IMG/VR virus record: IMGVR_UViG_3300047310_000535
Span: 1-24,427 of that record
Length of the DNA stretch: 24,427 nucleotides
Origin: a virus
Strand: one strand, 5' to 3'
Shown: positions 1 through 18,704 of the stretch, piece after piece
Numbering within the stretch: the stretch's first letter is position 1
How the letters are laid out: each line of letters opens with the position of its first letter
Position numbers and translations under genes: made by a program
Notes under the pieces: generated by a model
The model's database searches: none
Seen by the model: only the letters and a program-made list of their open reading frames with translations
What the model was told of the DNA's origin: nothing

Positions 1-1
1 G

Positions 2-166
2 TTTTTTGGGAATCTTCGGAAGGGAACCGTCGATGTCGATTTGGGCGGGCGAGTTCGGAAGCTACGCGCGGTAGCGGCCAAAATGTCGTTACCCGGGATC
101 GCGTCGGCCGAGAATCAGGTGCTCGAAGATCTCGCTTCCAAACTCCAGATCCGGCGTCATCCGTAG
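2..166 (+). CDS. 3' end of an unknown upstream gene (5' partial)
   Basis: A reading frame is open from the window edge to a TAG at 164-166 and translates to 54 residues ending in KLQIRRHP. Its codon choice resembles that of the neighbouring genes, with mostly G or C at third positions. It is in the same frame as the helicase gene, which begins 4 bases downstream, so the stop at 164-166 separates two genes and need not be read as a mutation in the helicase. The fragment is too short to assign a family and I do not recognise it. An internal ATG at 83 would give only a 27-residue peptide and has no ribosome binding site. Confidence 0.5.
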   Translation, partial: FFGNLRKGTVDVDLGGRVRKLRAVAAKMSLPGIASAENQVLEDLASKLQIRRHP

Positions 167-169
167 CGG

Positions 170-1606
170 ATGCCCCGTGAAGCTCCGAAGGCTGGCGAAG
201 CGACTCTTGAAGTAGACTCGCTGAACGAGGTCGTGATTGTCGCGGCCGCGTGCGCGTCCCCCGAGCTCCGCCGGGTTCTCGTCTCGCGAGTCCCGTCTGA
301 CTACTTTCACGATCCGAAGAACGCTGCGATCTGGTCGGCCATTCGGGAGCTCGAACGCCGGCACCTCGGGTTCGACGTCGCGACGCTCGCGACGCTTTCG
401 GCCGGCGTCGATTCGACTTATCTGGCGCAGCTGATCGAGCTCCGGCCGGCCCCTCCCCCGAACATCGAGCATCACGTCCGGACGCTCGAGTGGGACCGCG
501 CACGAGTAAATGTTTGGATCGGACCCCTTCAGGGACTCGTGACCGCGATGCGGGATCCCCGGACGGAGCCCGATAAGGTAAGGGCGCTCGCGCTCCAGGT
601 CGCGAGATCGTTCGACGGATTCGGTGATCGCGGTCTTCTGCTCGACCCCCAGCAGCTCGTGCGCGACCAGATGGAGGATCTCCGGAAGCGTCGCGCCGGC
701 GCCGCCATCTATCCGTTTGGGATCCGGTCGCTCGACGATCTCGTCGATCAAAAAACCGGCAAACCGCTCCTGATCCCGGGCGCCGCCCCCGGCAAGATCA
801 CGTTCATCACGGGCGTCTCGGGTTCCGGGAAGTCCCTGATGGGGGCTCACTTTATCCTCGGGTCGGTCCGACAACGACGTCGTGTTCTGGTCGGCGCGTG
901 GGAACCCCAATCAGGAGAGCTCCTCGAGTTCCTTGCGTGCGTCTCGCTGAAGTGGAGCCGCTCCGACGTGAAGCTCGGTCGCGTCACGGACGAGCAATTT
1001 GAACAACTCCGGGAGCGTGAGGAATTCATCTCGAAGTGGGTGAGGTTTCTCCCGAATCCCTTTCGACGTTCGACTTCGCGCGCGTCGAACGAGCGAAACC
1101 TCGACATGATCGAGGGCTACCTGAGCGACACCGGCTGCGACGTCTTTTACGCCGACCTCTGGGAGCGAGCGCTCGAGGAAGATTCACCGAGCGACGAGAA
1201 GCGGGCCCTGTATCGGCAGCAGGAGATGATGGAGAGGAGCCGATGTCACGGGATCTTCAATCATCAACAGAAGTTGAAGGACGTCGAAGAACGAGAGGAC
1301 AAGCGTCCGAATCGTTCGACCATGAAGGGATCGAGCGCCTACGTGGAGGTCGCGGACAACCTGTTCGGGACGCACCGCCCGGCGCTCTTCAAGTCGGTCC
1401 CGGACAACAAGTTTGAGCTCTTGGTGTTGAAGCAACGTGACGGGCGATGGCCGATCGCGCTCGAGTTCGACTTCGACCCCGACACCGCCCAGATCTGGAG
1501 CGGTCGCGAGGTTCCGTTTGGATCATCGGCGGAGTCGGCAGGGGGGCAGATGGAGGACTTCATCGCGGGACCGAAGCGCGAGAAGAAGTCCTGGAGGCGA
1601 GATTGA
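170..1606 (+). CDS. dnaB: DnaB-type replicative DNA helicase
   Basis: The 478-residue product has the two-domain layout of the hexameric DnaB/gp41 (SF4) helicases that unwind DNA ahead of the polymerase at the fork. Residues about 15-70 resemble the DnaB N-terminal domain, with a DYFHDPKNAAIWSAI segment. The RecA-like ATPase domain starts near residue 180. Its Walker A is GVSGSGKS at 215-222, followed by a Walker B-like strand ending in DVFYADL and a late KQRDGRWPIALEFDF segment like the arginine-finger and C-terminal region of DnaB. Length matches the family. The start at 170 keeps the N-terminal domain, but no good Shine-Dalgarno precedes it, so a slightly different start is possible. The primase gene overlaps its stop codon by 4 bases, which fits helicase and primase acting together as a primosome. 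Confidence 0.9.
   Translation: MPREAPKAGEATLEVDSLNEVVIVAAACASPELRRVLVSRVPSDYFHDPKNAAIWSAIRELERRHLGFDVATLATLSAGVDSTYLAQLIELRPAPPPNIEHHVRTLEWDRARVNVWIGPLQGLVTAMRDPRTEPDKVRALALQVARSFDGFGDRGLLLDPQQLVRDQMEDLRKRRAGAAIYPFGIRSLDDLVDQKTGKPLLIPGAAPGKITFITGVSGSGKSLMGAHFILGSVRQRRRVLVGAWEPQSGELLEFLACVSLKWSRSDVKLGRVTDEQFEQLREREEFISKWVRFLPNPFRRSTSRASNERNLDMIEGYLSDTGCDVFYADLWERALEEDSPSDEKRALYRQQEMMERSRCHGIFNHQQKLKDVEEREDKRPNRSTMKGSSAYVEVADNLFGTHRPALFKSVPDNKFELLVLKQRDGRWPIALEFDFDPDTAQIWSGREVPFGSSAESAGGQMEDFIAGPKREKKSWRRD
1593..1597 (+). promoter_or_regulatory. ribosome binding site fixing the primase TTG start
   Basis: GGAGG lies 5 bases before the TTG at 1603. This supports the TTG start, which overlaps the helicase stop as TTGA, over a start at 1447 that would add about 52 residues lying entirely inside the helicase gene. 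Confidence 0.75.
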
Positions 1607-2565
1607 GTTACGACCCCCTCGCGGTCGACGTTCCGAAGCTCCTCGCGGAGCTCGGGGTCGAGGCGACCCACGACGGCGACACCTGGCTCGCGACCTGCCC
1701 CGGGGGCCGTCACGCAGACCGTCGACCGTCCTGGCGAATCAAAGACGTACCGGGCCAGGAGAAACACGGGGTTCACTACTGCCACAGTTGTAAGTGGGGC
1801 GGGACCGCGATCGATCTCGTCGTCCGGATCTATGGGTTCTCGGGTCCCGGTGAGGCGGTTTCGTGGATCGAGCAGAACGCGATGGGGGCCGGCCAACGGG
1901 TCGAGCGTCTCATCGTGAACGTTCAGCCGGCAGTCGCGCCGCGGTTCCGGCTACCCGCGACCGTATTGGTTCTCCCGCTCGCGTCGTGGGCCCCAACGCC
2001 GCGTCGATACCTGGTCGAGCAGCGCGGGTTCGATGAACGCGACGTCGAACAGTGGGGGCTTGGCTACGCGGTCGAGGGGCGACTTCAGGGCCGGATCGTA
2101 TTCCCGGCTCGTGACGAACGGGGTCGGATTGGAAACTACACAGCCCGCACGTTCGTCGGCGCGATGGTCCGGTATCTGTCGGCTTCGGAGGAAGAAGGTC
2201 CCGACCACTCCTGTATGTTCGGCGAGCATCTCTGGCCCGACCGCGCCGCGCGGCGCGGTCAGACGGTCGTCGCGACCGAAGGAGCCCTTAACGCGATGGC
2301 GGCCCGTAGGGCGACGGGTCTCCCGGTGGCGGCCCTCTCGGGTTCGAAGGTTAATCTCGGCCAGATCCTCAAGCTTGCGCAGTTCGGACGAGTCCTGGCC
2401 CTTACGGATCCGGATCTCGCCGGCGAGGCGGCCGCCGACCGAATGAGGGCTGCGCTGATCCGACATGTCGAATTCGGACGCGTCGAACTCCCGAAAGGTT
2501 CCGATCCCGCAACGGTCGCGCCATCCTATCTAGGAGAACTGATCCGATCGTGTGGTCCTACCTAG
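1603..2565 (+). CDS. dnaG: DnaG-type DNA primase (zinc finger plus TOPRIM core)
   Basis: This 320-residue protein makes RNA primers for phage replication. A CHC2-type zinc finger occupies the N-terminus, with C32, H37, C60 and C63 as likely ligands. It is followed by the primase N-terminal core (YLVEQRGF through RIVFPARDERGRIGNYTAR). The TOPRIM domain has the expected acidic residues: E226 in the TEGALN segment, then D269 and D271 in the DPDLAG motif. The protein stops soon after TOPRIM and lacks the C-terminal helicase-binding domain of bacterial DnaG (about 580 residues), as in many phage primases. The TTG start overlaps the helicase stop (TTGA) behind a strong GGAGG. One copy of the window's palindromic repeat lies in the gene just before the TOPRIM domain and encodes DRAARRG. 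Confidence 0.88.
   Translation: MSYDPLAVDVPKLLAELGVEATHDGDTWLATCPGGRHADRRPSWRIKDVPGQEKHGVHYCHSCKWGGTAIDLVVRIYGFSGPGEAVSWIEQNAMGAGQRVERLIVNVQPAVAPRFRLPATVLVLPLASWAPTPRRYLVEQRGFDERDVEQWGLGYAVEGRLQGRIVFPARDERGRIGNYTARTFVGAMVRYLSASEEEGPDHSCMFGEHLWPDRAARRGQTVVATEGALNAMAARRATGLPVAALSGSKVNLGQILKLAQFGRVLALTDPDLAGEAAADRMRAALIRHVEFGRVELPKGSDPATVAPSYLGELIRSCGPT
2241..2260 (+). repeat. palindromic element, copy 1 (in primase gene)
   Basis: The 20 bases CCGCGCCGCGCGGCGCGGTC contain an 18-base perfect palindrome. In this copy the palindrome extends to a perfect 22 bases (2239-2260). It is read in frame as RAARRG, in the stretch between the primase core and the TOPRIM strands. Identical 20-base copies lie at 11580 and 18757. 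Confidence 0.85.
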
Positions 2566-2777
2566 GCAACTTGTTCGATGTTGATCCCGAAGCCGCTCGC
2601 CGATACGTGGTCGCCCAGTACGTAAAAGCAGGCTGCACATACAGCGGCGCGGCACGCCTGCTCGGACTTCATGAGAAGTACCTCCATGAGCTCGTGACTC
2701 GTAAAGGACTCCGGGCCGAGCTCGCGCGCCAAAAGGCGATCGTGACCGCCATGCTGGCTCCGCCGCGAGACACCTGA
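2550..2777 (+). CDS. small helix-turn-helix protein A
   Basis: This 75-residue protein starts at GTG 2550 inside the end of the primase gene. Residues about 28-60 (TYSGAARLLGLHEKYLHELVTR) resemble a Fis- or resolvase-type helix-turn-helix: an alanine-rich first helix, a glycine turn and a recognition helix. No catalytic motif is visible. Its stop overlaps the ATG of the next gene (TGATG), and the next protein aligns with it along most of its length, which suggests a tandem duplication. A role in regulating phage transcription or binding replication-region DNA is inferred from the fold and position only. The family is not recognised. Confidence 0.65.
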   Translation: MWSYLGNLFDVDPEAARRYVVAQYVKAGCTYSGAARLLGLHEKYLHELVTRKGLRAELARQKAIVTAMLAPPRDT

Positions 2778-2989
2778 TGTCGTACCGCCCGACCCCCATC
2801 GGCACGCTCGTTCGGTACGACCGACGGCAGGCCCGGAACGACGTTCTTGAACAGTACAGGCTCCTCGGTTGGATTACGTCCGATGTGGCAACGCACTTTG
2901 GCGTGAGCAGGCGGCAGATGATCAGGATCGCGAACGAGCTCGGGCTTGCCCGCGCGATCGCGATCGCACGAGCGAAGCTCGTCGGTTGA
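2777..2989 (+). CDS. small helix-turn-helix protein B (paralogue of A)
   Basis: This 70-residue protein contains a likely helix-turn-helix at residues about 32-56 (TSDVATHFGVSRRQMIRIANEL). The pattern R..V..QY...G, then A...G, then GL can be aligned by eye with protein A, giving two adjacent DNA-binding paralogues with different recognition helices. The ATG overlaps the stop of the preceding gene by one base. It is the last gene before the one clear intergenic region of the window, so it could bind that region, but this is inference. It has no other visible domain. Confidence 0.65.
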   Translation: MSYRPTPIGTLVRYDRRQARNDVLEQYRLLGWITSDVATHFGVSRRQMIRIANELGLARAIAIARAKLVG

Positions 2990-3034
2990 AAAAGAAACTT
3001 GCAGAGGTGTTAAGCGTTCGATTAGTTTAGGGGA

Positions 3035-3048
3035 AAGTCGCGAGACTT
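3035..3048 (+). repeat. short inverted repeat AAGTC-GCGA-GACTT
   Basis: Five-base perfect arms surround a 4-base GCGA loop in the intergenic region. It could be an operator half-site pair or a small RNA hairpin tip; it is too short to decide. Confidence 0.35.
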
Positions 3049-3092
3049 ACATAGGTACAGGGCGCGTCATGCTTGGCGCACTGGGACTTTTG

Positions 3093-3116
3093 GTCCTAGA
3101 GTTTTTTACCTAGGAC
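3093..3116 (+). repeat. 7-bp inverted repeat around a T-rich loop
   Basis: Arms GTCCTAG (3093-3099) and CTAGGAC (3110-3116) flank a 10-base loop containing six T residues. The T run is in the loop and not after the stem, which argues against a simple terminator. Its place just before the sigma-like gene suits an operator or an mRNA 5' hairpin. Confidence 0.5.
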
Positions 3117-3140
3117 GATTGTCCGGAGAAAGAGGATCAC

Positions 3141-3167
3141 GTGAACAATGTAGGCGCATTGTCATGA
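3141..3167 (+). CDS. possible 8-residue leader peptide
   Basis: GTG at 3141 sits 4 bases after AGAGGA (3131-3136), the only good Shine-Dalgarno in this stretch. It opens an 8-codon frame (MNNVGALS) whose TGA overlaps the ATG at 3164 of the sigma-like gene as ATGA, the coupling arrangement used by most genes here. This suggests ribosomes load at the leader and re-initiate on the sigma-like gene. Such a short frame could also arise by chance. Confidence 0.35.
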   Translation: MNNVGALS

Positions 3168-3850
3168 GGAGACGGTACGAACCCGGGGCGCGGGTAGCGC
3201 TCGACCGAGCTCTCAAAACCATCACGCCGGTCGGCGGTTCGTTCGAGGAATTAGCTCAAGCTTGTCTAGACGGCCGAATTACGTTCGAGTGTTTTTACAA
3301 GCAAACGCGTCCCGTGTTGGCGGCAAAAGCGGCCTGGATTCTACGGCGCTGGAAGGCCCCCACGGGTGCCGAGGACGTCGAGCAAGAGATGGCGGTGGCG
3401 GTCTGGCAGAAGTTCGCCGAATTCGATCCTTCGCGTGGTGTTTCGATCGGGCGGTTTTTACTTTATGGGGCGGGAGTTGTCGGCAAAGCGGAAGCCCACC
3501 GCGCCCGCCAGTGCAACAAGCACGGCACGCGCGACAAGAACCCATCGCGGTACGCGGTCCCGTTTTCGTCGATGCGGGGTGTCGATGAAGGGGGATTCGA
3601 TCCCGCCGACATGGTCGTCGCGGAACCGATCCAAGAACGGGTTGCGGAGGTTCGCGCCATACTGGCCCGGTGCAGAACGACGTTCGATCGCTCGATCCTC
3701 GAGGCCCTTGTAGCGACGGGTGGATCGGTGCGGGAGGTCGCGGGGAAGCTGTTCGCCGGAATCGACGGACCGATCGCGACCAGAATGATCAACCAAGCGC
3801 TGATCAATATCGGCTGCACGGTTTCGGACATCGAACGGATGGCGGCCTGA
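3164..3850 (+). CDS. sigma-70 region-2-like protein (putative phage sigma factor)
   Basis: The product has 228 residues from the ATG at 3164. Residues about 50-115 resemble sigma-70 region 2: a TGAEDVEQEMAVAVW segment like the core-binding helix, then FDPSRGVSIGRFLLYGA, close to the FDPxRGxxFxTYA pattern of bacterial sigma factors. Residues about 165-220 (RSILEALVATGGSVREVAGKL onward) could form a region-4-like helix-turn-helix. A sigma-like protein would let the phage redirect host RNA polymerase to its own promoters. A TTG at 3119 would add 15 residues but has no ribosome binding site, so I prefer 3164, probably coupled to the leader peptide. The gene stands alone after the intergenic region. 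It could instead be a non-sigma DNA-binding protein. Confidence 0.6.
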   Translation: MRRRYEPGARVALDRALKTITPVGGSFEELAQACLDGRITFECFYKQTRPVLAAKAAWILRRWKAPTGAEDVEQEMAVAVWQKFAEFDPSRGVSIGRFLLYGAGVVGKAEAHRARQCNKHGTRDKNPSRYAVPFSSMRGVDEGGFDPADMVVAEPIQERVAEVRAILARCRTTFDRSILEALVATGGSVREVAGKLFAGIDGPIATRMINQALINIGCTVSDIERMAA

Positions 3851-3875
3851 CGGGCCGGGAAGGTTTGGCAGACAG

Positions 3876-4952
3876 ATGAGTAGCGAAGCGATCGCGACGC
3901 CGGCGTTCCGGGTCGAACACATGAACGAGGCCCTCGTCGACGAGGCAATCAAGAAGTTCGGCGTGAAGGGAATCCCGCGCGGCGCGAAGTTCGCGAACCG
4001 AGCCGGTCTACTCCAGATCCACCTCCGGAACATCACGAACCCGGATAACTTCGTCGAGTGCGATCTCTGTCTTGCGGGTTCCGACGTTGACCTCCCGGGG
4101 TGTCCGTTTTGCGGCCGAGGCGACGATGAGGCGGGCGTTCCGGAGAAACCGAAGGAGCCCCAGAAGCTCACGCAGGTAAAGCGCCCGAAGCAGTCGAAAC
4201 CTTCGACCGAGATCGTGAAGAAACCCGAGCCGAAAACCGAACCGGCCCAGAAGGCCGACCTGACGGTCGACGAGGGGAATCTGCTTCGCCAACTCGACGA
4301 GGCGGTTCGCGATATTCTGGCGCTGAATGCGGGTGTCGAGGCGTCGAAGTGGCTCCTCGGTAAGAAGATCGCGGAAGTCTTTCACAGCGAGGGCTGGAGG
4401 CTCCGCCGTGACCAAGAAGGCGAGCAGTCGTACCGCGGGTTCAATCAATTCGTCGTCACCGAGATCGGGATCGACCCATCGACCGCGTACCGGTACATGG
4501 ACATCTCGAAGCGGTTCACGGAAGAACAGGCCAAGAAGCTCGGAACCCACAAGGTCGTCGCGCTCCTACGGGTTTCGGACGAAGCAGAACAAAAGAAGCT
4601 GATCGAGAAGATCGAGCGCGAAGGGCTATCGTCGCGCGAAGTTCAGGCTGAGGTAAAGCGGCTGAACCTTCCGCGGCGCGAGACTGGTCGGCGCGAGATG
4701 CCCGACGGAGCCCCCGGGCGCCGCGCGCTCCCGGCTGGCGCGATCGCGGCGGCCCTAACGCTCGGGGTGAAGAACCTCGGGTTGATGAAGCGCGACGACC
4801 CAACCCAGAAGGCGAAGGCGATCGTGGACCTTCCGACCTGCCGACTCGATCTCGACAACGGTGTCGTGATGGAGTTCACGATTCTCGAAGGAAGCGCCGG
4901 TCTTGTTTTGAAGGTCGACGTGAAGAAAGAAGATCCGCTCTCAGAGGTTTAG
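3876..4952 (+). CDS. zinc-ribbon and helical DNA-binding-like protein
   Basis: This 358-residue protein is of unrecognised family. The N-terminal part carries paired cysteines C62/C65 and C76/C79 (CDLC and CPFC), a likely zinc ribbon. A lysine-, proline- and glutamate-rich linker follows at about 88-130. Residues about 140-265 look all-helical, with a segment (GIDPSTAYRYMDISKRF) like a helix-turn-helix, followed by KKLGTHKVVALLRVS and REVQAEVKRL. The latter pieces resemble the helical part of KorB/ParB-type or plasmid DNA-binding proteins, but there is no ParB nuclease-like domain here. It lies between the sigma-like gene and the DNA polymerase and ends 5 bases before the polymerase GTG. A replication-accessory or regulatory role is inferred from context only. 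Confidence 0.6.
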   Translation: MSSEAIATPAFRVEHMNEALVDEAIKKFGVKGIPRGAKFANRAGLLQIHLRNITNPDNFVECDLCLAGSDVDLPGCPFCGRGDDEAGVPEKPKEPQKLTQVKRPKQSKPSTEIVKKPEPKTEPAQKADLTVDEGNLLRQLDEAVRDILALNAGVEASKWLLGKKIAEVFHSEGWRLRRDQEGEQSYRGFNQFVVTEIGIDPSTAYRYMDISKRFTEEQAKKLGTHKVVALLRVSDEAEQKKLIEKIEREGLSSREVQAEVKRLNLPRRETGRREMPDGAPGRRALPAGAIAAALTLGVKNLGLMKRDDPTQKAKAIVDLPTCRLDLDNGVVMEFTILEGSAGLVLKVDVKKEDPLSEV

Positions 4953-4957
4953 TCGCC

Positions 4958-7372
4958 GTGGTGATTCCGGCGCTGACGACCGCGTTCGTAGAGCAGGACC
5001 AGTTGGTCCTGCTCTACCGGAACGATGCAAACGCCCTGATGCAGCGTCGACTCCCGGCGGAGTGGTCGAGCTTCTACAGGAGGGCCGAGATCGAACCCCA
5101 TCTGCGGGAACTCTCGAGTTCGCGGTTCGTTCGTTCGGTCGCGGACGAGGGCGATTGGGTCCGGATCCGGTGGAGTGACCGATGGGTCCGGGAACGAGCG
5201 TGCTCGCCCGATAGCCCCCTAAGCCGCGCCGGCGTTGTCGCGTTCGAGGCTGATCTTTCACCGGTTCAGCGGTTTCTCGCTGACTCGGGTGCGAAGATCG
5301 CGCGGCCGAATTGGTGCGTGGTCGACTTCGAAACCGACTCGCGGGTATCGCCGCGCGAGGCCGCTATTGGGAATGCCCGCCTGCTCTCGTGGGTCATCAC
5401 GCGCCCGGACCTGACCGACATCACGGGAGTCCTGGAGGCCGATACGGACGAGGCGGAGCGGGATCTCTGGGAGGCGTTTTTTCTCGCGCTCGACGAGTTC
5501 GATCTCGTACTCGCCTGGAATGGCGATGACTTCGACTTCCAGCTGATGCCGGTTCGGGTTCAGAAGGTCCGGGCCCGCGTGAAGGACAAGCGCCGGTGGC
5601 TGTTCCTCGACTACATGGTGTTGTTCGAGCGGATGAACCGGAACGCCGCTGAGTCGGGTGACGAGAAGGTATCGCTGAAGCTGAACGTGGTCTGTGAGGC
5701 CATGATCGGGGAAGGGAAAGAAGAGTTCGATCCTCGCCGGACGTTCGAGGCTTGGGAGGACAAGGGCCGATACAAGTCGCGGGCCGAGATGGTTCGGTAC
5801 ATGCGGCAGGACTCCGCGCTCGTCGTGAAGCTCGACCGGAAGACCGGCTATCTGGCGCTTCACCAGACGATCTCGGAGGTCTGCGGGGTCTTCCCGGACA
5901 GCTACGGGATGAACCCAACCCGGTTCGTCGATGGGTTCATGCTCCGGGTGGCGGTCGAACGCGGGACCCACTTCCCGTCGAAGATCTGGGACCGCGAACC
6001 CGAGCAGCAGTTCGCCGGCGCCTGGGTAATGGAACCGAAGGACAAGGGGTTCATCGAGAACGTTCACGTCGGGGACTTCAAGAGCCTGTACCCGTCCATC
6101 ATGATCACGTGGAACATGTCGCCCGACACGAAGGTCGCGACACCGCCCGGTCAGCGGAGTTCCGAGAAGCAGCCCGAGGGATTCTGCCGGTCCCCCTCGA
6201 ATGGGGTCGTGTTCCGGACCGACATCGCCGGGATGCTGACGGACGCTCTCAAGGAGCTGATCCGGCTCCGCGACTTCTGGAAGAAACGTAAGAGCGAGCT
6301 GCCTCCGAATACGGACGAGTGGCGTGACGCTGACCGGAAGTCGATGGCCTACAAGGTCGCGGCCAATTCGTTCTACGGGGTCGTAGGGTCGATCTACTCG
6401 AGGTTTTTCGATCGCGATATCGCGGAGGGCGTGACGCAGAACGGCGTCTGGTTGATCAAGCGCACGTCGGATGCCGCGGAGCGACCCGGTCCCCATACCG
6501 GTAAGGGCCTCCGGACCACGTACGGCGATACCGATTCACTCTTTATCGTCGGCGGCACCGAACTCGAGTTCGATGCGTTCGCCCGATGGTGCAACGAGTC
6601 CCTCTATCCGGATCTCCTGAGGGGGTGCGGGTGTCAGGAGAACAAGATCTCGTTCGCGTACGAGAAGATGTTCGAGCGGATCGTCATCCTGTCGGCGAAG
6701 AAGTACGTGGGCCGGCTTCGTCACTACGGGTGGGACGCGAAGCGGGGCGATTGGAACTGGGCGACCGACAAGTCGAAGCCCGAAGTGAAGGGCCTCGAGT
6801 GGAAGCGCGGTGACGCGAACAAGATCGCGCGCGCGCTCCAGTACGAGGCGATCAAGATCGTATGCGCACCCGCGCGAGCTGACGCGATGGATCCGGCCCG
6901 GTACGTCGAGGTGGTGGAGTGCTACAAGCGCCACGTTCTCGAGGACCCCCTGACGGTCGACGACGTGAAGCAATCCCGGGCGCTCTCGAAGCGGACCGAC
7001 GAGTACGAGCAGAAACTGAAGAAGGACCAGACGCCGGCGGCGGTTCCGCCACACGTCACGATTGCGCGCTTACTCGAGGAGCGGGGCGAGCAGATCGTGA
7101 TTGGGTCGAAGATCGACTACGTGATCCAGGACGGGTCGAAAGATGAAGGGAATCTGAAGGCGATCCCGGCGTCCGAGTACGACGGGCAGAACGCCGATCG
7201 TCACTACCTCTGGGAGAAGATGATCTGGCCGCCGACTCAGCGACTCCTCGCGGCCGCGTTCCCGCTCCGGGATTGGTCGCAGTGGGACCGGACGCGCCCT
7301 CCGAAGAACCAACAGCTCCTCGAGAAAGCCGGCCAGGGTCGCTTCACGTTCGGACCGAAGTCGGCGCCATAG
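4958..7372 (+). CDS. family B DNA polymerase with 3'-5' exonuclease
   Basis: This is the 804-residue replicative polymerase. The proofreading exonuclease is complete: Exo I D123 and E125 (DFETD), Exo II N188 and D193 (NGDDFD), Exo III Y281 and D285 (YMRQD). Polymerase motif A is D373 with SLYPS at 376-380. Motif B is K466, N470 and Y473 (KVAANSFYG). Motif C is YGDTDS at 522-527, with catalytic D524 and D526. The KKY motif is at 581-583. All catalytic residues are present, so it should be active. No protein-primed (TPR) insert was noted, consistent with use of the primase upstream. It starts at GTG 4958; a second GTG at 4961 is an alternative. It ends 6 bases before the next gene. Confidence 0.95.
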   Translation: MVIPALTTAFVEQDQLVLLYRNDANALMQRRLPAEWSSFYRRAEIEPHLRELSSSRFVRSVADEGDWVRIRWSDRWVRERACSPDSPLSRAGVVAFEADLSPVQRFLADSGAKIARPNWCVVDFETDSRVSPREAAIGNARLLSWVITRPDLTDITGVLEADTDEAERDLWEAFFLALDEFDLVLAWNGDDFDFQLMPVRVQKVRARVKDKRRWLFLDYMVLFERMNRNAAESGDEKVSLKLNVVCEAMIGEGKEEFDPRRTFEAWEDKGRYKSRAEMVRYMRQDSALVVKLDRKTGYLALHQTISEVCGVFPDSYGMNPTRFVDGFMLRVAVERGTHFPSKIWDREPEQQFAGAWVMEPKDKGFIENVHVGDFKSLYPSIMITWNMSPDTKVATPPGQRSSEKQPEGFCRSPSNGVVFRTDIAGMLTDALKELIRLRDFWKKRKSELPPNTDEWRDADRKSMAYKVAANSFYGVVGSIYSRFFDRDIAEGVTQNGVWLIKRTSDAAERPGPHTGKGLRTTYGDTDSLFIVGGTELEFDAFARWCNESLYPDLLRGCGCQENKISFAYEKMFERIVILSAKKYVGRLRHYGWDAKRGDWNWATDKSKPEVKGLEWKRGDANKIARALQYEAIKIVCAPARADAMDPARYVEVVECYKRHVLEDPLTVDDVKQSRALSKRTDEYEQKLKKDQTPAAVPPHVTIARLLEERGEQIVIGSKIDYVIQDGSKDEGNLKAIPASEYDGQNADRHYLWEKMIWPPTQRLLAAAFPLRDWSQWDRTRPPKNQQLLEKAGQGRFTFGPKSAP

Positions 7373-7378
7373 GCCGGC

Positions 7379-7987
7379 ATGCGTAAGCGCAGCGAGGTCG
7401 TGGCGGCCCGGGTAGGCCCGCCGTTGGCCGAAGTGTCGAACGAGCCCGAAGCCCCCAAGACGGTCGCGGAAGCCTTCGTGACGGTAGTGCCGGACGGCAA
7501 GCCGCGGATGTCGGATGAATTCGAGAGAATCCTGACGCGGGTGCTCGACCTACCGAACGCGGAAGCTGAATACGACCGACTCGAGAAGGCCCTACGGGTA
7601 GGGGCCCAGCGGAACGACCTCGGGACCCTGATGGAGGCACTCGATCAGGCGGAAGACAACGCGCGGGTTGCGGATAAGATCGCGGTCAACGCGCAGGTCG
7701 AGCGCGACGCGTGTCTGAAGGAATTCGAGGTTTTTCAGGCTCCGATTTGGAGCGCGTGTTCGCTCTATCTGCAAGAGCAAAAGGACTCGGGAGTCCTGAA
7801 GTCGAAGAACATCACGGACGCTGACGTCAGGGCGGCGTGTGCGCAGCGTTACCCGGACGAGTACCGGGACTTCGCCCGCCGAGAGGCCACGCTCGACGCG
7901 ATGGTCCAACACACCAAAAAGCTCGCGGCGCTCTGGTCGAGCCGATGCGCGAGCCTCATGACGATGATCGCGAACAGGAGGAAGTAA
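7379..7987 (+). CDS. hypothetical helical protein
   Basis: This 202-residue protein is mostly charged and predicted helical by eye, with heptad-like stretches at about 55-105 (EYDRLEKAL, MEALDQAEDNARVADKIAV) and 160-200. No catalytic motif, signal peptide or membrane segment is visible. It lies between the DNA polymerase and the ssDNA-binding-like gene, and its TAA shares one base with the ATG of that gene. The position suggests a replication or recombination accessory, for example a helicase loader or mediator, but no such family signature is seen. The function is unknown. Confidence 0.6.
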   Translation: MRKRSEVVAARVGPPLAEVSNEPEAPKTVAEAFVTVVPDGKPRMSDEFERILTRVLDLPNAEAEYDRLEKALRVGAQRNDLGTLMEALDQAEDNARVADKIAVNAQVERDACLKEFEVFQAPIWSACSLYLQEQKDSGVLKSKNITDADVRAACAQRYPDEYRDFARREATLDAMVQHTKKLAALWSSRCASLMTMIANRRK

Positions 7988-9378
7988 TGGCCGGTACCGG
8001 GATGACGATGGACGAGTTTCTCAACCACTCCACGAGGGGCGGTCGAGGGCAGGTTCTGAAGAGCTGGAAGGACAAGGGGAAGATCCTCGTCTGGTTGTCG
8101 CGGAAGTCGCGCATCCACTGCCTCTGGCGTCACCAGTTCATGCGGGTCGCGGACCTGAAGGATAAGCCGGCCGAGATTTGGGGTGACAAGTTCGGGTGTT
8201 TCGAGACCGACGAGGACGTCCTGCGAAACCAGAACTTTCGCGACAAGGATACGAAACAGCGGAAGCACCCGCCGTCCTGCGGCTACTGCCGATTCCTCGA
8301 GGATCTCTACCAGGAGATCGTCGGGGGTAAGATGTCGTGGACCGAGCCGGTGTTTCGGTTCCGCACTCCCGACGGCCGAACCGAGCGCATCATGTACGCG
8401 GGTGGTCTCCTGGGGTTCTTCGGATCTCCGAAGCTCACGGACGACGAGAAGGGCGAGCTTCGCGACAAGGGCATCTTCGTCAAAGAGGCGTGGAAGCAGG
8501 TCTCGAAGCCGAAAGCCGAATACGTGTTCAGCGTCGTCGACGACTCCGACGTAAAGTCGGGCGTCCAGATCGCGGTCGAGACCTCCGGGCTCGGCGACAA
8601 GATGCGCCGGGTTCTGCGCGACCAGCTGAAGAGCCGGCGTGAGAAGGGGGACCCGTACCAGAATCCGTACCCGTTCCTGTGGGAGTACGACGACAAGGCG
8701 GAATCGTTCAACGAAGCCTATGGGGTTATCCCGATGGTGGAGGAGAAGCTAACGCCCGAGATCGCCAAGCTGATCGACGGTCCACCCCCGAACCTCGACC
8801 ACATCGTCGGTGGGAAGTCCCGAACGGCCGTGCGGGCGATGCTCGAGGAGCACTGTTGCCTCAGCGGAATCGACTGGACCTCCTACCTGCCCGATGAGGC
8901 AGCAGAGCGCGACTCGAAGGACAAGGACGCTCCGGAAGTCGGTCATCTCGCGGAAGATGAGCAGGACGACTCGCCCGAGGAAGCAGCGGCGCCCGAGGCA
9001 CCGCCGGCGTCGGAACCGGACGACATGGTCGCGTGCGACGGATGCGAGACACCGATGCCCGCAACTGCCCCGAAGTGTCTCGCGTGCGGGAAGGTGTACG
9101 AGGTCGAGCAGGCAGCTCCCGCGATTCCGCCACCCCCGCCACCCCCTCCGCTCAAAAAACGAAGCGAGGCAAAGCGTGAGCTCGCTCAGAAAACGTTTCC
9201 GATCCCGACCCCACCGCCCGCACCACCGCCGACCCAATCCGCTCAAACGGCTCCTGCAACGTCACCGGTATCGGCTGGGCTCGCGGCCGCGTTCGAAGGC
9301 AGTGACGACGAGATCCCCTTCATTTATTGCGACGTAGCCAGAATGACCGGTGAGCGTTGGTGGAGATGGGAATTCTAA
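7987..9378 (+). CDS. gp32/SSB-like single-stranded DNA-binding protein
   Basis: The product has 463 residues from ATG 7987, which overlaps the preceding stop. The N-terminal half has a gp32-like pattern: a zinc-site candidate formed by H94, C98 and C101 (HPPSCGYC) with C71 or nearby His/Cys. The conserved-looking NPYPFLWEYDDKAESFNEAYGV segment is of a kind seen in phage ssDNA-binding proteins. A second, CxxC-type zinc ribbon lies at C350, C353, C364 and C367 in an acidic and proline-rich C-terminal region with a run of eight prolines. Near the end is DDEIPF (440-445), matching the partner-binding tip of bacterial SSB, but 18 more residues follow it. It would coat ssDNA and coordinate the polymerase, RecA-like and SbcCD-like proteins encoded around it. 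The assignment rests on motifs and gene order. Confidence 0.65.
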   Translation: MAGTGMTMDEFLNHSTRGGRGQVLKSWKDKGKILVWLSRKSRIHCLWRHQFMRVADLKDKPAEIWGDKFGCFETDEDVLRNQNFRDKDTKQRKHPPSCGYCRFLEDLYQEIVGGKMSWTEPVFRFRTPDGRTERIMYAGGLLGFFGSPKLTDDEKGELRDKGIFVKEAWKQVSKPKAEYVFSVVDDSDVKSGVQIAVETSGLGDKMRRVLRDQLKSRREKGDPYQNPYPFLWEYDDKAESFNEAYGVIPMVEEKLTPEIAKLIDGPPPNLDHIVGGKSRTAVRAMLEEHCCLSGIDWTSYLPDEAAERDSKDKDAPEVGHLAEDEQDDSPEEAAAPEAPPASEPDDMVACDGCETPMPATAPKCLACGKVYEVEQAAPAIPPPPPPPPLKKRSEAKRELAQKTFPIPTPPPAPPPTQSAQTAPATSPVSAGLAAAFEGSDDEIPFIYCDVARMTGERWWRWEF

Positions 9379-9392
9379 AAGGCCTTATTCCC

Positions 9393-10610
9393 ATGCGAAA
9401 AAAGAAAGAAACGGCCGAGAATGAGACGCCGGTAGAGGCAACGCTTACTGCCGGCGACGGGGGCAACGGCGGCTCATCTGCCAGGAACGAACGACTGAAG
9501 GCACTCGCGGCCGTGTCGAAGCGCTTCAAAGCGTTTCGCCCGGCTCGCGACGTTCTGCTCAAGGTCGAGGCGGTTCCGACGATCTTCCCCTGGTACGACA
9601 TGGGGACGCGAGTCGGCGGTCATCCGCTCGCTCGGTTCGGGATCGTCCACGGTCCCTCGAATCATGGCAAAACGGCATTCGTCCTTGGATTAGGACTTTC
9701 GTTCCTGAATCGCGACCACTTCTTTGGTCTGATCGATGCCGAGAACACGACACCGATCGATTGGGTCGAGAAGCTGATGGGGCCGAACGCCGATCACCCC
9801 GGGTTCAGCGCGATTCGGCCGACCTCGTACGAGGAAACGGTCGACGCGACACGCGAGTATCTCGTCGGAATTGGTGAGGCCCGCGAGAAGGGTCAGATCC
9901 CGAAGGACACAACGGCTCTCGTCGTTGTCGACTCGATTCGAAAGCTCGTTCCCCAGAATATCTGGGACAAGATTCAGGACATCGGGGCCGAGGGCGAGAA
10001 GGGGAGCGTCGACGGCATGGGGGGCAGGGCCGCTCAGATAAAGGCGGCCATGAACGCGGCGTGGCTCGACGAGGTCACGATGCTGCTCCAGCAGACCAAC
10101 ACCGCGATGGTCGTGATCGCGCGCGAGTCGCAGGATGTCAACGCGGACGCGAACAAGCGGAAGTACGGGCAGGACTTCAAGATCACGGGCGGCGGGGCCC
10201 TCGTGTTCGATTCATCGCTCGGGATCCGGGTGACGCGGAAAGAGTGGACGCGGGTCGGCGCCTCCAAGACCGACGGCGGGACCGTCGTGGGGGAACAGCA
10301 TCAGGTCCGGATCTGGAAGACGAAGATCGGCGGCAAGGACGACAAGCATACCGACACGTACTTCCACACCTCGAACGGCGTTCAGACACCCGAGGGATTC
10401 GACCGCGCCCGCGACGTCCTGGAGCTCGGGATGGAGCTTGCGGTCGTGAAGTCGCCTGGCGGTGCGTGGCTCAGTTGGTCGACGCCGGGGAAGCGCTGGA
10501 ACGGCAAAGCGGCCGCCCTGAAGGCACTCGCGGGCGACCCCGAGATGCTGGGGGCCCTCGAGCGCGAGGTCCGGGGACAGTTCGGCGCCAAGCCGGAAGC
10601 GGCAGAATGA
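9393..10610 (+). CDS. RecA/UvsX-like recombinase
   Basis: The 405-residue product carries out strand exchange and recombination-dependent replication. It has a RecA-fold ATPase core: Walker A GPSNHGKT at 87-94 and a Walker B strand ending in D180 (TALVVVDS). There is also a conserved-looking GGGALVFDSSLGIRVTRK segment like the L2 and core-end strand of RecA, and a basic VRIWKTKIGGK segment. Length is close to UvsX and bacterial RecA. The first 35 residues are lysine-rich then low-complexity. The ATG at 9393 is preferred because TAAAAGG precedes it; TTG 9357 and ATG 9366 overlap the previous gene and are less likely. Its stop overlaps the SbcD-like start (ATGA), placing recombinase and end-processing nuclease in one coupled unit. 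Confidence 0.85.
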   Translation: MRKKKETAENETPVEATLTAGDGGNGGSSARNERLKALAAVSKRFKAFRPARDVLLKVEAVPTIFPWYDMGTRVGGHPLARFGIVHGPSNHGKTAFVLGLGLSFLNRDHFFGLIDAENTTPIDWVEKLMGPNADHPGFSAIRPTSYEETVDATREYLVGIGEAREKGQIPKDTTALVVVDSIRKLVPQNIWDKIQDIGAEGEKGSVDGMGGRAAQIKAAMNAAWLDEVTMLLQQTNTAMVVIARESQDVNADANKRKYGQDFKITGGGALVFDSSLGIRVTRKEWTRVGASKTDGGTVVGEQHQVRIWKTKIGGKDDKHTDTYFHTSNGVQTPEGFDRARDVLELGMELAVVKSPGGAWLSWSTPGKRWNGKAAALKALAGDPEMLGALEREVRGQFGAKPEAAE

Positions 10611-11344
10611 GATTCCTGACCACAGGTGACTGGCACGTCGACGCCGTGACGGCTGGGTATCGACGTGCCGGTGATGTTGAGCGAGCCGCGATGGCGACAG
10701 CCGAGCTCGCGGTCCGGGAAGGCGTCGATCTCTACTGCTTCAACGGTGACCTTTGCGATCCCGATCTATCGGCCGTCGGAACCATCCGGGGGATCGCGCT
10801 CTCATTGAAGATCGCCCGGTTCCTCGGACAGAACGGGATCCCGAACTTTTGGATCTCGGGTAACCACGACGTTCTCGAAGACGGTACCGGTAACACGACT
10901 CTAACGCCGCTCGCGGAGGCGAAGCTCGACAAGACGGTCGTGTTCGAGGAACCAGGTGCGCTCACGGTCCCTAACCGAGGTGGGGTCGAAGGAGGGTTTC
11001 TTTTTTGTGCACTTCCGTTCGTCGCACGTTCTCGCGCGTACGATCCGCACGCGGTCGTAAAGGGATTCGGGGAACGCTCCCGCGGGACCGATACGTTCCA
11101 CGTCGTGCTCGGCCACCTTCAGGTCGAGGGTGCTCTACTGGGGTCCGAGACGCTCGACATGCCGCGGGGTCGCGACGTTCGGTTCCCGGTAGAAGCGGTG
11201 AAGCTACTGCCTCGCCGGTTCTGCCTAAACGGCCACTACCACAAGCGACAGCAGGTCGGCGAAGTTTTCATGCCGGGATCTCTCGAGCGTCTTTCGTTCG
11301 GCGAAGAGCAGAACCAACCTGGCTGCGCGATCGTGGAGGTCTAG
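10607..11344 (+). CDS. SbcD/Mre11/gp47-like metallophosphoesterase nuclease subunit
   Basis: The product has 245 residues from ATG 10607, which overlaps the recombinase stop. Calcineurin-like phosphoesterase motifs appear in order: D8 and H10 (GDWH), D48 (NGDLCD), N86-H87-D88 (GNHD), H170 (LGHLQ), and H210 with H212 (GHYH). These bind the two catalytic metals. It should form a nuclease complex with the SbcC/gp46-like ATPase two genes downstream and resect or process DNA ends for the RecA-like recombinase. It is shorter than E. coli SbcD (about 400 residues), matching compact phage gp47-type proteins that lack the capping domain. It is followed immediately by the GTG of a small unknown gene. 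Confidence 0.88.
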   Translation: MRFLTTGDWHVDAVTAGYRRAGDVERAAMATAELAVREGVDLYCFNGDLCDPDLSAVGTIRGIALSLKIARFLGQNGIPNFWISGNHDVLEDGTGNTTLTPLAEAKLDKTVVFEEPGALTVPNRGGVEGGFLFCALPFVARSRAYDPHAVVKGFGERSRGTDTFHVVLGHLQVEGALLGSETLDMPRGRDVRFPVEAVKLLPRRFCLNGHYHKRQQVGEVFMPGSLERLSFGEEQNQPGCAIVEV

Positions 11345-11740
11345 GTGGCGAGGCGGAAACCGCAGCAGACCGTGAAGGTAACGGAGGTTCTGAACAAGCA
11401 CGCGCGCGAGGTCGTAACGATCTCGGCCGATAGCCCATTCTGGGATACCCACGATCGCGATCTCGTTCCGGTCGGGTCCCTCGTTCGCCTGTTTCCTCCC
11501 GCCGGCACCGGCGAGAAAGAGATCGAGCTTGCCCTGAAGGCCCTTGAGGGAATCGCGAAGGCCGTAAGGCCGATGCCGGCCGCGCCGCGCGGCGCGGTCC
11601 CGGTCGGCCAAACCGAACCGGCGGCCGAATGTCCTGGTGCGCGCGCCGTGATCGTCGCGATGGCGGCCGAGGTTCCGACGCAAAACCGACCGGCGCTCGT
11701 CGCGCTCTGCGAGTCCGTGATGACCGAGGTGAAGCTGTGA
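11345..11740 (+). CDS. hypothetical protein between the SbcD- and SbcC-like genes
   Basis: This 131-residue protein starts at GTG 11345, directly after the previous TAG. No family is recognised. The N-terminal 70 residues look folded, with a basic start (MARRKPQQTVKV) and a segment like a small beta domain (DLVPVGSLVRLFPP). Residues about 74-95 form an alanine- and proline-rich linker that contains the palindromic repeat, read as AAPRGAV. A short helical end follows. It is coupled to the SbcC-like gene through GTGA at 11737. The position suggests a partner of the SbcCD-like complex, but nothing in the sequence demonstrates this. Confidence 0.6.
   Translation: MARRKPQQTVKVTEVLNKHAREVVTISADSPFWDTHDRDLVPVGSLVRLFPPAGTGEKEIELALKALEGIAKAVRPMPAAPRGAVPVGQTEPAAECPGARAVIVAMAAEVPTQNRPALVALCESVMTEVKL
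11580..11599 (+). repeat. palindromic element, copy 2
   Basis: This is the same 20 bases as at 2241, with the 18-base perfect palindrome at 11580-11597. It is read in a different frame from copy 1, giving the residues of AAPRGAV, and lies in a low-complexity linker of the 131-residue protein. The outer pair that completes 22 bases in copy 1 would be G opposite T here. Confidence 0.85.
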
Positions 11741-13704
11741 TCGTCACCGAGATCGGACTTGAGAATTGGCTCTGCTACCGGGGCCAGCAGGTTCTGGCGC
11801 TGGAGCCGAAAGCGTACTCGATCGTCGCGCGTCGGCAGGACGAAGCGGACCGCTCGAACTGGCAGGGTAAAAGTTCGTTCGTCGAGTCGGTCTTGTTTGG
11901 TCTCTACGGACAGCACCGCAAGGAATACGAGGACGATTGGATCACGGACGGCGAACGGTCCGGTTCGGTCCGTCTGCTGCTAAAAGATGGCGACGAGCCC
12001 ATGACGGTAACGCGTTCGCGCCGGCGCGGAAGTCCGACGAAGCTCGTCGTCCAGATTCCGGGTATCGGCGAGGCGACCGGGGATGAGGCCCAACAGATCA
12101 TATGCGAGCGCGTTGGGCTTTCGCTACGGGACTTTTGCCGCGGCCCGTACGTCGAGCAGAAAAAGACGTCTTGGTTCGTTTCGGCGAAACCAGCCGACCG
12201 GATCGCGATCGTGGGTGAGTGGCTCAGGTTCGCACCCGTCCAGGAGGGCGAGAAGATCCTGAGGGCGAAGGCCGCAGGACTCGCGGATCTTCAGGACGCG
12301 GACCGGTCCGAGCTCAATCGGCTCACGGGGTCCGAACTGAAAGGCGACCCTGGTAGCGACCCGGTCGAGGTCGTGCAGGCTTCTTGGCAAAAAGCACTCG
12401 AGGATGCGTCCCGTTCGCTCGATGCCGCGGCCCGGGTAGTCCTGGAAGTATCGGGTCGTCGCGACGCAGCGGTCGCGGCCCGGACCGGTCAGCGCGACCT
12501 TGCGAGATTCCGAGAGGTGGTTGATCAAGGGACCGCGATGGCGACCGAGCTCGCCGCGATGCCGTCCGAGCTCGAAGTCACTACCGCCATCACGAAGGCA
12601 CGGGAGGCGCGAGACGCGTCGTTGGCGGTCGAGCGAACCCTTTACCAGGAGGTAAGGTCGAAAGACCAACTTTCCCGCGGGAAGTTCGACGGTGTATGCC
12701 CGGTTGCCGGCTGTGCGTGTCCGATCGAGAAACAGATCAATGCCGATAGGGCAGGGAATCTGAAGCTGCTCGAGGACGCGTCGGCCCGGTACGGGGTCGC
12801 GAAGAAACAGGCGAGCGACGACGCAACCACGTTGGTTCGCACAGAGGCCGTGCTGCGGAAGCGCGACGACCTGAAGGGACGAATCGAGGCCCATCGGGTA
12901 GAGGCACGACGGCTCAAACCGATAGCGAGAGCCGCGGCCGAACGGGAAGGCGCTGTCGATCTGACGGCACTCGACGATGAGCTCGGGAGCGTGAAGATCG
13001 TTGAGTCGGAAGCGCGCGAACGGGTCTGGCAGGCCAAACAGGCACTCGATGGGTTTGCGGAGCGGAAGCGACGCGCTGACGAGCTGGTTGGCCGAATCGC
13101 TGCCCGGGAAAAGGAACTCGCGACCGCGCGCGAGGCGCTTGCGATCTTTGGTCGCGGTGGAGCCCAGCGGAGGATCGCGGAGGGCGTACTCGGTGCGATC
13201 CAGGACGGGGCGAACGGGATGCTGGCGGACTGCGGCATGAGGCTCCGGATGGAGGTCCGGTGGGGGCACGAGGGCAAGGGTCTAGCTGATTCGTGTGAGG
13301 CCTGCGGGACTCCGTTCGGCAGAAGTGCCCGCGTGAAGGAATGCGCGCGCTGCGGGACCGCTCGCGGCCACAACGTCGAGCACAGGCTCGACCTAAAGCT
13401 TTCGGACAAGTCGGGGGGCGCGGATGATCTTTGCGGGATCGCGTTCCAACTATCGGCTGCCCGTTGGCTCCGCCGGGACCGAAGTGCGGCGTGGTCGACC
13501 TGCTTCATCGACGAACCGTTTGGGTCGCTCGACAGCGCGAACCAGCGGTCGTTATCGGCACACGTCGCGTCTCTTCTTTCGAGCCGGTACGGGTTCCGGC
13601 AGGCGTTCGTCATCACGCACCGACCCGAGACGAACGATGCTTTCCCTGGGAGGATCGAGATCGTCGGGACCGACCGAGGGTCAACCGCTCGGGTAGTGGC
13701 GTGA
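11737..13704 (+). CDS. SbcC/Rad50/gp46-like SMC-family ATPase
   Basis: The product has 655 residues from GTG 11737 (GTGA overlap). ATPase halves sit at both ends. The N-terminal P-loop is NWQGKSS at 41-47, followed by SFVESVLFGLYGQHR. The C-terminal half has an ABC-signature-like SGGADDL segment near 560, Walker B FIDEP at 590-594 (D592, E593) with GSLD after it, and a VITHRPE H-loop. Between them lies a coiled coil with a zinc-hook-like apex at C321, C326 and C328. An additional CxxC pair set (C520, C523, C536, C539) lies just before the C-terminal ATPase half, where most Rad50/SbcC proteins have no zinc ribbon. The P-loop lacks the usual GxNGxGK form but keeps GKS. It is the predicted motor partner of the SbcD-like nuclease. 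Confidence 0.88.
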   Translation: MIVTEIGLENWLCYRGQQVLALEPKAYSIVARRQDEADRSNWQGKSSFVESVLFGLYGQHRKEYEDDWITDGERSGSVRLLLKDGDEPMTVTRSRRRGSPTKLVVQIPGIGEATGDEAQQIICERVGLSLRDFCRGPYVEQKKTSWFVSAKPADRIAIVGEWLRFAPVQEGEKILRAKAAGLADLQDADRSELNRLTGSELKGDPGSDPVEVVQASWQKALEDASRSLDAAARVVLEVSGRRDAAVAARTGQRDLARFREVVDQGTAMATELAAMPSELEVTTAITKAREARDASLAVERTLYQEVRSKDQLSRGKFDGVCPVAGCACPIEKQINADRAGNLKLLEDASARYGVAKKQASDDATTLVRTEAVLRKRDDLKGRIEAHRVEARRLKPIARAAAEREGAVDLTALDDELGSVKIVESEARERVWQAKQALDGFAERKRRADELVGRIAAREKELATAREALAIFGRGGAQRRIAEGVLGAIQDGANGMLADCGMRLRMEVRWGHEGKGLADSCEACGTPFGRSARVKECARCGTARGHNVEHRLDLKLSDKSGGADDLCGIAFQLSAARWLRRDRSAAWSTCFIDEPFGSLDSANQRSLSAHVASLLSSRYGFRQAFVITHRPETNDAFPGRIEIVGTDRGSTARVVA

Positions 13705-14237
13705 TCGATTCCCGTTCAAAAGGCGCGAAGGCGGAGCTCGATGTCTGCCGCACGTTCGGAGATTGGTGGGGGCAGGTCGAGCCCGGGTGTATCTTCGTTC
13801 GCTCGCCCGGGAGCGGCGGCTGGGGGAACGCGAAGTCACGTGGTGAATTCGAGGCGTCCGGCGACATCATGACGTCTGCGAAGCGGTTTCCGTTCTGCGT
13901 TGAGGTAAAGCACCGCGAAGGGTGGGCTGAGTCGACGTTTCGGTCGGGCCGCCCCAGTCCGGTCTGGGGATGGTGGCGCCAGTGCCAGAGGGCTGCCGAC
14001 GAGATGGGGCGAGTTCCGATGTTGTGGTTTCGAAGGAATCGCGAAGCTTGGCGCGTAATGGTTCCGAGCGATTACGCGGGAGGTGGGTTCGTAACGATCG
14101 GTGGGGAAGGGTTAGAACCGAGTCGGTGGAACCCACGCCTGCTTCGTCGGCGTGGCGTCGATTACGGCAAGCGAGTTCCTGTTTGGTTCGGCGCCATTCA
14201 GCTCCTGACATGCCCCCCAGCAAGGTTCGCCCGGTAG
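13701..14237 (+). CDS. PD-(D/E)XK nuclease, Holliday-junction-resolvase-like
   Basis: The product has 178 residues from GTG 13701, overlapping the SbcC-like stop. The start resembles Hjc-type resolvases: SRSKGAKAELDV with E12. Then come FVRSPGSGGWG, D55 in SGDIM, and E68-V69-K70 in FCVEVKHREG, giving the E...D...ExK pattern of PD-(D/E)XK endonucleases. Tryptophan- and arginine-rich segments follow (WGWWRQCQRA, PMLWFRRNREAWRVM). It would cut branched DNA made by the recombination proteins upstream or debranch DNA before packaging. A restriction-type or repair nuclease of the same fold is the alternative. It overlaps the next gene by 28 bases. Confidence 0.65.
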   Translation: MIDSRSKGAKAELDVCRTFGDWWGQVEPGCIFVRSPGSGGWGNAKSRGEFEASGDIMTSAKRFPFCVEVKHREGWAESTFRSGRPSPVWGWWRQCQRAADEMGRVPMLWFRRNREAWRVMVPSDYAGGGFVTIGGEGLEPSRWNPRLLRRRGVDYGKRVPVWFGAIQLLTCPPARFAR

Positions 14238-18688: not shown

Positions 18689-18704
18689 AGACATCAATCG
18701 ACCG

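Follow-up and report, generated by a model that had tools for sequence, protein, structure and literature searches.

A candidate coupled leader frame, or a candidate split ribosome-binding site, in front of a phage sigma-70-family gene

The leader peptide frames of plasmid repA genes (tap in IncFII plasmids) overlap the start of the replication gene and are needed to open structure there; they differ from the sigma leader described here in that the leader is longer, control is by antisense RNA and the product is a replication protein. For a sigma gene with a coupled leader peptide, rseD-rpoE is a related system. Among the papers listed in a literature search for such an arrangement, none presented a case by title or abstract. 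In Escherichia coli, translating a 27-codon overlapping frame (ORF27, or idlP) raises the translation of iraD, whose Shine-Dalgarno (SD) sequence is hidden by structure; the coupling was shown by a start-to-stop mutation, and CsrA controls iraD (PMC5574718). Termination-reinitiation at such overlaps is documented in bacteria and archaea (PMC6728339). Phage T4 uses split ribosome-binding sites, in which folding reduces the spacing between SD and start codon from 27 to 11 nt in gene 25 and from 22 to 5 nt in gene 38 (PMC3014915).

The locus studied here is a sigma-70-family gene of a phage, preceded by a frame of eight codons; sigma factors redirect RNA polymerase. The likeness to ORF27 lies in a short frame upstream, served by an SD and ending across the start codon of the next gene, in a structure (predicted here) that hides the downstream start region, and in a bearing on sigma-factor control. 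It differs in that ORF27 is 27 amino acids long, iraD encodes an anti-adapter and CsrA is involved, whereas here the leader has 8 codons, the product is a sigma factor and coupling is predicted. With T4 genes 25 and 38 it shares a phage gene, an SD more than 20 nt upstream and a hairpin between SD and AUG, with 10 nt left here once the hairpin is looped out; the T4 devices were shown by mutation and probing, whereas ours is predicted, and here a GTG stands right behind the SD. Both mechanisms are already known in kind, and the sigma arrangement would be a further example.

The window, the whole stretch of DNA that was analyzed, is a 24,427-base virus record. Its positions 1-14,279 are 100% identical to a 69-kb contig (G001) and positions 1-13,694 are 100% identical to a 96-kb sister contig (G002), while 13,701-19,000, as far as the comparison with G002 was taken, shows 95% identity. 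The drop to 95% at ~13,694-13,701 is abrupt, with ~200 extra bases in G002 at the junction, which could mark a mosaic contig or a point of recombination. By its genes the virus is a tailed phage: a DnaB-like helicase, a primase and two small helix-turn-helix (HTH) proteins are followed by the sigma-like gene and a ParB/zinc-ribbon-like protein, and further genes encode a family-B DNA polymerase and UvsX/RecA-like and SbcC-like proteins. Between the helicase/primase/HTH genes and the sigma gene lies an A+T-rich gap (2990-3140, + strand; 47.7% G+C against 63.1% for the window). Rfam covariance models gave no match at E<=5 in 2700-4200, and we found no tRNA genes in the 96-kb contig. Genes of G002 and of G003 were our own crude calls by length and codon-position G+C (129 and 74 genes, respectively) and do not amount to an annotation.

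The gene at 3164-3850 (+ strand) encodes 228 amino acids from ATG 3164, and its product is, by profile and predicted structure, a sigma-70-family factor. This bears out the earlier note, which had suggested a phage sigma factor: residues 45-99 match the region 2 family PF04542 just above its cut-off (E=1.5e-5; 25.1 bits against 24), two distant orthologues exceed the cut-off too (27.1 and 32.4 bits), and structure matches are mostly to sigma factors. NCBIfam models of ECF sigma factors matched weakly, far under their own cut-offs, and a profile of the window protein and one orthologue (L006) found ECF SigK among PDB sequences (E=0.00087). AlphaFold2 gives a model of only fair confidence (mean pLDDT 59.5), in which residues 21-120 reach 64-80 in blocks of ten. 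Foldseek with the full model gave no match at E<=0.001. Nevertheless, 49 of the 50 PDB matches listed are titled sigma factors or RNA polymerase complexes (the 15th is an unrelated designed protein, and the 1st, 29th and 39th are titled integrative models). Among the matches listed from a viral structure library, named sigma factors are frequent and include the top one, beside many nameless entries. The best VIA-align match was sigma-28 (Z 9.9 over 80 residues, rmsd 2.7, residues 36-116), a Z value that helical bundles can also reach. Phage sigma-70-family factors in BFVD, such as that of Synechococcus phage S-CBWM1, resemble the window protein in predicted fold, small size and region 2, at 16% identity and a Foldseek E of 0.0098.

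A check of the structure against sigma-70 regions, which the earlier note had proposed, held for region 2 (3296-3460, + strand, by PF04542; residues ~36-116 by structure) and left region 4 only suggested by the model. In sigma-70 factors, region 2 serves core binding and recognition of the -10 element, and the helix-turn-helix of region 4 recognizes the -35 element. Pfam does not recognize a region 4, as PF04545 gave no match at E<=1. The C-terminal 75 residues (3623-3847, + strand) are modelled as a helical bundle at pLDDT 65, a weak candidate for an HTH-like domain and possible region 4. Foldseek with this part reached a best E of 5.1, and VIA on 45 chains gave a weak likeness to LuxR/NarL-type HTH domains (Z 5.2 to 3.1) and a weak one to SigL region 4 (Z 3.7), the only sigma entry among the 15 matches listed, where the absence of others is no evidence.

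The best SD near the gene start is the stretch at 3125-3136 (+ strand), which consists of GGAG (3125-3128) and GAGGA (3132-3136). Five nucleotides behind GAGG begins a frame of 8 codons at 3141-3167 (+ strand; GTG AAC AAT GTA GGC GCA TTG TCA TGA, encoding VNNVGALS), whose TGA (3165-3167) overlaps the sigma ATG (3164-3166) in ATGA. This GTG frame and its overlapping stop had been described in the earlier note correctly to the base. The best anti-SD duplex is -6.6 kcal/mol at GTG 3141, -2.4 at ATG 3164 and -3.9 at TTG 3119, in a scoring that assumes an E. coli-type 16S tail, which may not be that of the host. The locus thus shows what is expected for a coupled leader, namely a short SD-served frame whose stop overlaps the start of the gene behind it.

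The leader layout is rare and, by these counts, more than a chance feature. At the 432 ATGA sites on both strands of G002, an ATG or GTG frame of at most 15 codons served by an SD occurs 7 times, and together with a weak SD for the downstream start 3 times (the sigma site included in both counts). Among weak-SD ATGs, the strict layout occurs at 3 of 1,087 in G002 (again including the sigma site) and a looser one at 14; in G003 the counts are 4 and 30 of 1,215. Such a mini-frame at a weak-SD candidate start is found for 2 of the 129 called genes of G002 and for 2 of the 74 of G003.

A predicted hairpin, absent from the earlier note, lies over the leader (3141-3165, + strand). In the full fold, 6 core pairs surround the loop UAGGCG, closed by one U-G pair, A3145 is bulged, and 4 outer pairs join the leader GUG with CAU 3163-3165, such that the A and U of the sigma AUG are paired with the leader GUG in the predicted best fold. 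The core alone (3145-3162, + strand) has 7 pairs and the loop AGGC (-5.1 kcal/mol), and the 3141-3170 fold reaches -7.9 kcal/mol at a z of -1.9. The predicted unpaired probability is 0.01 for the sigma AUG and 0.00 for the leader GUG, while the SD (3127-3136) is predicted to be unpaired at 0.81-0.87 in three of four contexts and at 0.41 in the fourth. When 3121-3156 was held open, as by a 30S subunit on the leader, the AUG bases became 0.78-1.0 unpaired in the prediction.

We tentatively prefer, at somewhat less than even confidence, a reading in which termination-reinitiation from the 8-codon leader controls translation of the sigma gene. Ribosomes would bind at the SD (3125-3136) and melt the hairpin as they read from GTG 3141 to UGA 3167; at the overlapping AUGA, a share of those terminating would restart at the sigma AUG. 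Sigma synthesis would in this way depend on initiation at the leader and stay at a modest level. The anatomy fits leader-dependent translation, as the earlier note had proposed: an SD-served frame overlaps a sigma AUG whose own SD is weak and which the predicted fold pairs. Such predicted coupling is plausible; timing control of a later gene set, which the earlier note also suggested, is a conjecture.

Several observations speak against the coupled leader. The leader GUG is itself predicted to be fully paired, so the hairpin gives the leader no advantage over the gene. Occlusion of the AUG as strong as this (unpaired probability of 0.05 or less) also arises in 64 of 1,000 sequences with a shuffled middle, and 15 of 111 called starts show it too. 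Junctions of the ATGA/GTGA kind are common in this phage (15 gene pairs, median SD -5.9), which speaks for coupling, but in 11 of the 15 pairs the second gene has an SD of at least -5 strength, which the sigma gene lacks. By codon usage the leader frame does not look coding (-3.6 bits), and the first 14 codons of the sigma gene itself reach just -0.4 against the window background and +6.5 against that of the gap. A frame shift from the leader into the sigma gene was set aside by eye, since the junction has no slippery sequence.

A good rival, which the earlier note's reading of leader coupling did not contain, is a split ribosome-binding site, in which GAGG (3132-3135) serves the sigma AUG directly and the GTG frame is incidental; we consider this less likely than not. 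Looping out the 18-nt hairpin at 3145-3162 would reduce the spacing from SD to AUG from 28 to 10 nt, and the earlier claim that the SD serves the leader and not the gene is insecure for that reason: the best duplex is indeed the one at GTG 3141, but the folded spacer could bring the same SD close to the AUG. The locus has the distant SD, the predicted intervening hairpin, the 10-nt effective spacing and no nearer good SD that such a site calls for, the device would be the one that T4 genes 25 and 38 employ, and among 41 called + strand genes with a weak-SD first ATG only the sigma gene shows the geometry. Opening the split site would also cost less (~11.3 against 13.0 kcal/mol for the leader site in the same context), in a comparison for which the open stretches were our own choice and of unequal lengths. 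On the other hand, the best predicted fold also pairs two bases of the AUG, its A and U, and two orthologues use a direct SD. On the two strands of G002, 17 of 1,088 weak-SD ATGs show the geometry, as do 15 of 1,215 in G003, which makes it commoner by chance than the strict leader layout. We prefer the coupled leader, narrowly: chance yields its layout less often, and the GTG that stands 5 nt behind GAGG would compete for ribosomes and would probably be used anyway. The sigma leader region offers a tidy test case for separating a coupled leader from a split site. Should either of the two, leader or folded spacer, prove real, it would be a case of translation setting how much of a phage sigma factor is made, alongside any control of transcription.

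About as doubtful is that the repeat further upstream acts in transcription, as an intrinsic terminator (3081-3107), as an exchanging-hairpin attenuator or as a DNA operator. The 7-bp inverted repeat with a T-rich loop that the earlier note had reported does exist (3093-3116, + strand; GTCCTAG 3093-3099 and CTAGGAC 3110-3116 around the 10-nt loop AGTTTTTTAC), with a predicted -12 kcal/mol. As an independent signal, however, it is at chance level: when the 174-nt stretch 2990-3163 was shuffled 2,000 times by single nucleotides, 109 of the shuffles contained a comparable repeat, and the contig-wide rate of inverted repeats predicts 0.37 per 174 nt. GTCCTAG and CTAGGAC have one further copy each in the 96-kb contig, within a called gene, which speaks against the arms as a phage-wide operator; neither recurs in other gaps. 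GGAC-N4/5-GTCC boxes showed no enrichment (5 and 3 copies, two of them in the sigma-gene gap).

In favor of a role in transcription, the A+T-rich gap also holds a terminator-like hairpin, CTGGGACT-TTT-GGTCCTAG (3081-3099, + strand), followed by AGTTTTTT, with AG and then T6 (3102-3107). It uses the left arm and the T-run of the inverted repeat, and the two hairpins are mutually exclusive because GTCCTAG is common to both; the T-run in the repeat loop may belong to the U-tract of the hairpin at 3081-3099. Of the 15 best among 23 terminator candidates on the G002 + strand, 4 lie between genes, and it ranks second in strength among these. A terminator scan of 2900-4000, however, found 1 against 1.2 expected in shuffles, which alone is not above chance. 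Moreover, the third arm (3110-3116) comes after T6 and is transcribed after the T-run, so an exchanging-hairpin attenuator in the usual order, with ordinary antitermination, is not what this arrangement offers. No promoter in the gap stands out, the best site of a matrix scan ranking 43rd on the + strand of G002. Nor did the motif search upstream of other genes, as the earlier note had proposed, uncover a common promoter: in a Gibbs search of 10 A+T-rich stretches, nothing was clearly above shuffles (information content 10.6, 12.9 and 17.0 against 10.1-10.5, 12.4-12.8 and 16.2-17.6). The plainest use of 3081-3107 is as a terminator for the preceding genes, because the last HTH gene stands in front of it; less securely than the leader itself, we infer that this hairpin and its T-run more likely would end transcription of the helicase-primase-HTH genes than regulate translation. 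Such a plain terminator is compatible with the leader model.

A less probable explanation is chance, with leader and hairpin irrelevant and initiation at ATG 3164 from a weak SD, as in other phage genes. A weak SD is unremarkable here, a point that also counts against the coupled leader: 26 of 86 genes have no good SD (no ATG or GTG better than -4 in the first 120 nt, compared with 9 of 17 in a gene-interior control). The z of the hairpin is a modest one, the looser rules noted above find a mini-frame at further weak-SD ATGs, and orthologues show no conservation. Against chance, just 1 of 1,087 weak-SD ATGs in G002, the sigma start, combines the strict leader layout with the hairpin bridge, and 0 of 1,215 do so in G003.

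Improbable, though of interest as a translational switch for the phage program, is a ribosome-binding site that works two ways with a single SD and a single hairpin. While the hairpin is open, ribosomes would take the GTG and reach the sigma gene by reinitiation only; while it is closed, the same SD would be placed beside the sigma AUG. The balance between the two states, and with it the sigma level, could depend on temperature, on the supply of ribosomes or on an RNA-binding protein from either phage or host. A narrow look at the literature found no precedent for such an SD/hairpin switch.

Translation from TTG 3119 (243 amino acids), which would leave no leader, is very improbable: although its frame is in phase with the sigma gene, has no stop after 3023 and has AGGA 3 nt ahead of the TTG (a short spacing for an SD), third-position G+C is 0.33 in 3119-3163 against 0.73 in the next 45 nt (3164-3208), codons 3122-3163 score -8.6 bits against phage codon usage where the gene body scores +54, and the orthologue starts, as placed here, lie still further downstream. 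These measures favor ATG 3164, the start assumed in the earlier note. In the sigma frame, no other ATG, GTG or TTG occurs between 3164 and the ITFxxFY block shared with the L006 orthologue, which begins at residue 39, so 3164 is the only start candidate besides 3119.

The leader region is identical in both sister contigs, so there is no substitution pattern with which to test the leader. The two sigma orthologues lie in distant phages (28 and 31% identity), in the contigs L006 and L027, which keep the order sigma, ParB/zinc-ribbon-like protein and family-B polymerase found at 2550-7372 of the window, with an extra gene in L006. The sigma family thus seems tied to a replication module, and its presence near replication genes in three uncultured phages is a useful annotation. 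In L006, AGGAG ends nine bases ahead of the ATG, with an own SD of -8.9 and a gap of 27 nt; in L027, where we placed the start at 4180, the own SD is -11.0. Neither orthologue has a mini-frame ending near the start, which counts against the coupled leader, and the sigma start is arranged differently here because both orthologues have a strong direct SD and no mini-frame. Queries with sigma, polymerase, ParB-like and terminase proteins against viral contigs found the sister contigs and distant relatives only, with no intermediate; a protein scan of genome contigs gave 388 pattern matches, none of which was confirmed as a relative. These scans rest on short peptide patterns and can miss relatives. 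Among 50,697 phage records none held a convincing relative (2 records matched, best tblastn E 0.2). As orthologues lack the mini-frame and no intermediates were found, the leader device, if real, would be young or lost elsewhere.

Two further motifs in the contig look more unusual than the leader arrangement. The first is a perfect palindrome, ACCGCGCCGCGCGGCGCGGT, at 2240-2259, 11580-11597 and 18757-18774 of the window and at 16 places in G002 (L011-L015), of which all 16 copies have 18 bp and 14 have 20 bp. Its copies are scattered over the 96-kb contig, within genes (in different frames) and in gaps, without common flanks. The 16-bp core is expected 0.0 times and is missing from G003, and the exact 20-mer occurs in 8 contigs of the viral collection, including the two sister contigs. 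It looks like a putative protein-binding site. ParB-like genes of the phage lie at 3876-4952 (below the cut-off) and 16763-17443 (by ParB_N) of the window.

The second motif, GTCTAGAC, occurs in 16 copies in the 96-kb contig against 1.05 expected, a count that is not unique, as two other palindromic 8-mers reach 14 and 13. Twelve of the 16 copies form six tandem pairs with copies 13-14 nt apart (811/825, 68940/68953, 85344/85357, 89051/89064, 93422/93435 and 94792/94805 in reverse-complemented G002), and lone copies lie at 283, 79321 and 82718 in the same coordinates and at window position 3264, within the sigma gene. Behind the right-hand copy of five of the six pairs come a -10-like hexamer (TAGAGT, TAGTAT, TAGTAT, TAGTGT and TATGAT) and, 6-7 nt later, an ATG, so that the pairs look like putative operator-covered promoters for leaderless messages. 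The 13-nt tandem pair occurs in 7 viral contigs and 5 bacterial genome stretches. When we searched six palindrome-sharing contigs and one sharing the tandem operator for a sigma orthologue, 0 of 7 had one; one of the seven gave a weak sigma match of 14.4 bits, which may be the second sigma gene described below, and DNA matching gave one 30-base match elsewhere.

The same phage carries a second sigma factor outside the window, at L011:7091-7912 on the minus strand, the annotation of which is useful in its own right. It has 273 amino acids and matches both sigma regions, region 2 at E=5.9e-9 and region 4 at E=1.2e-9. Its gene (own SD -1.7) overlaps both the preceding and the following gene in ATGA, and the gene after it starts right behind a tandem GTCTAGAC site.
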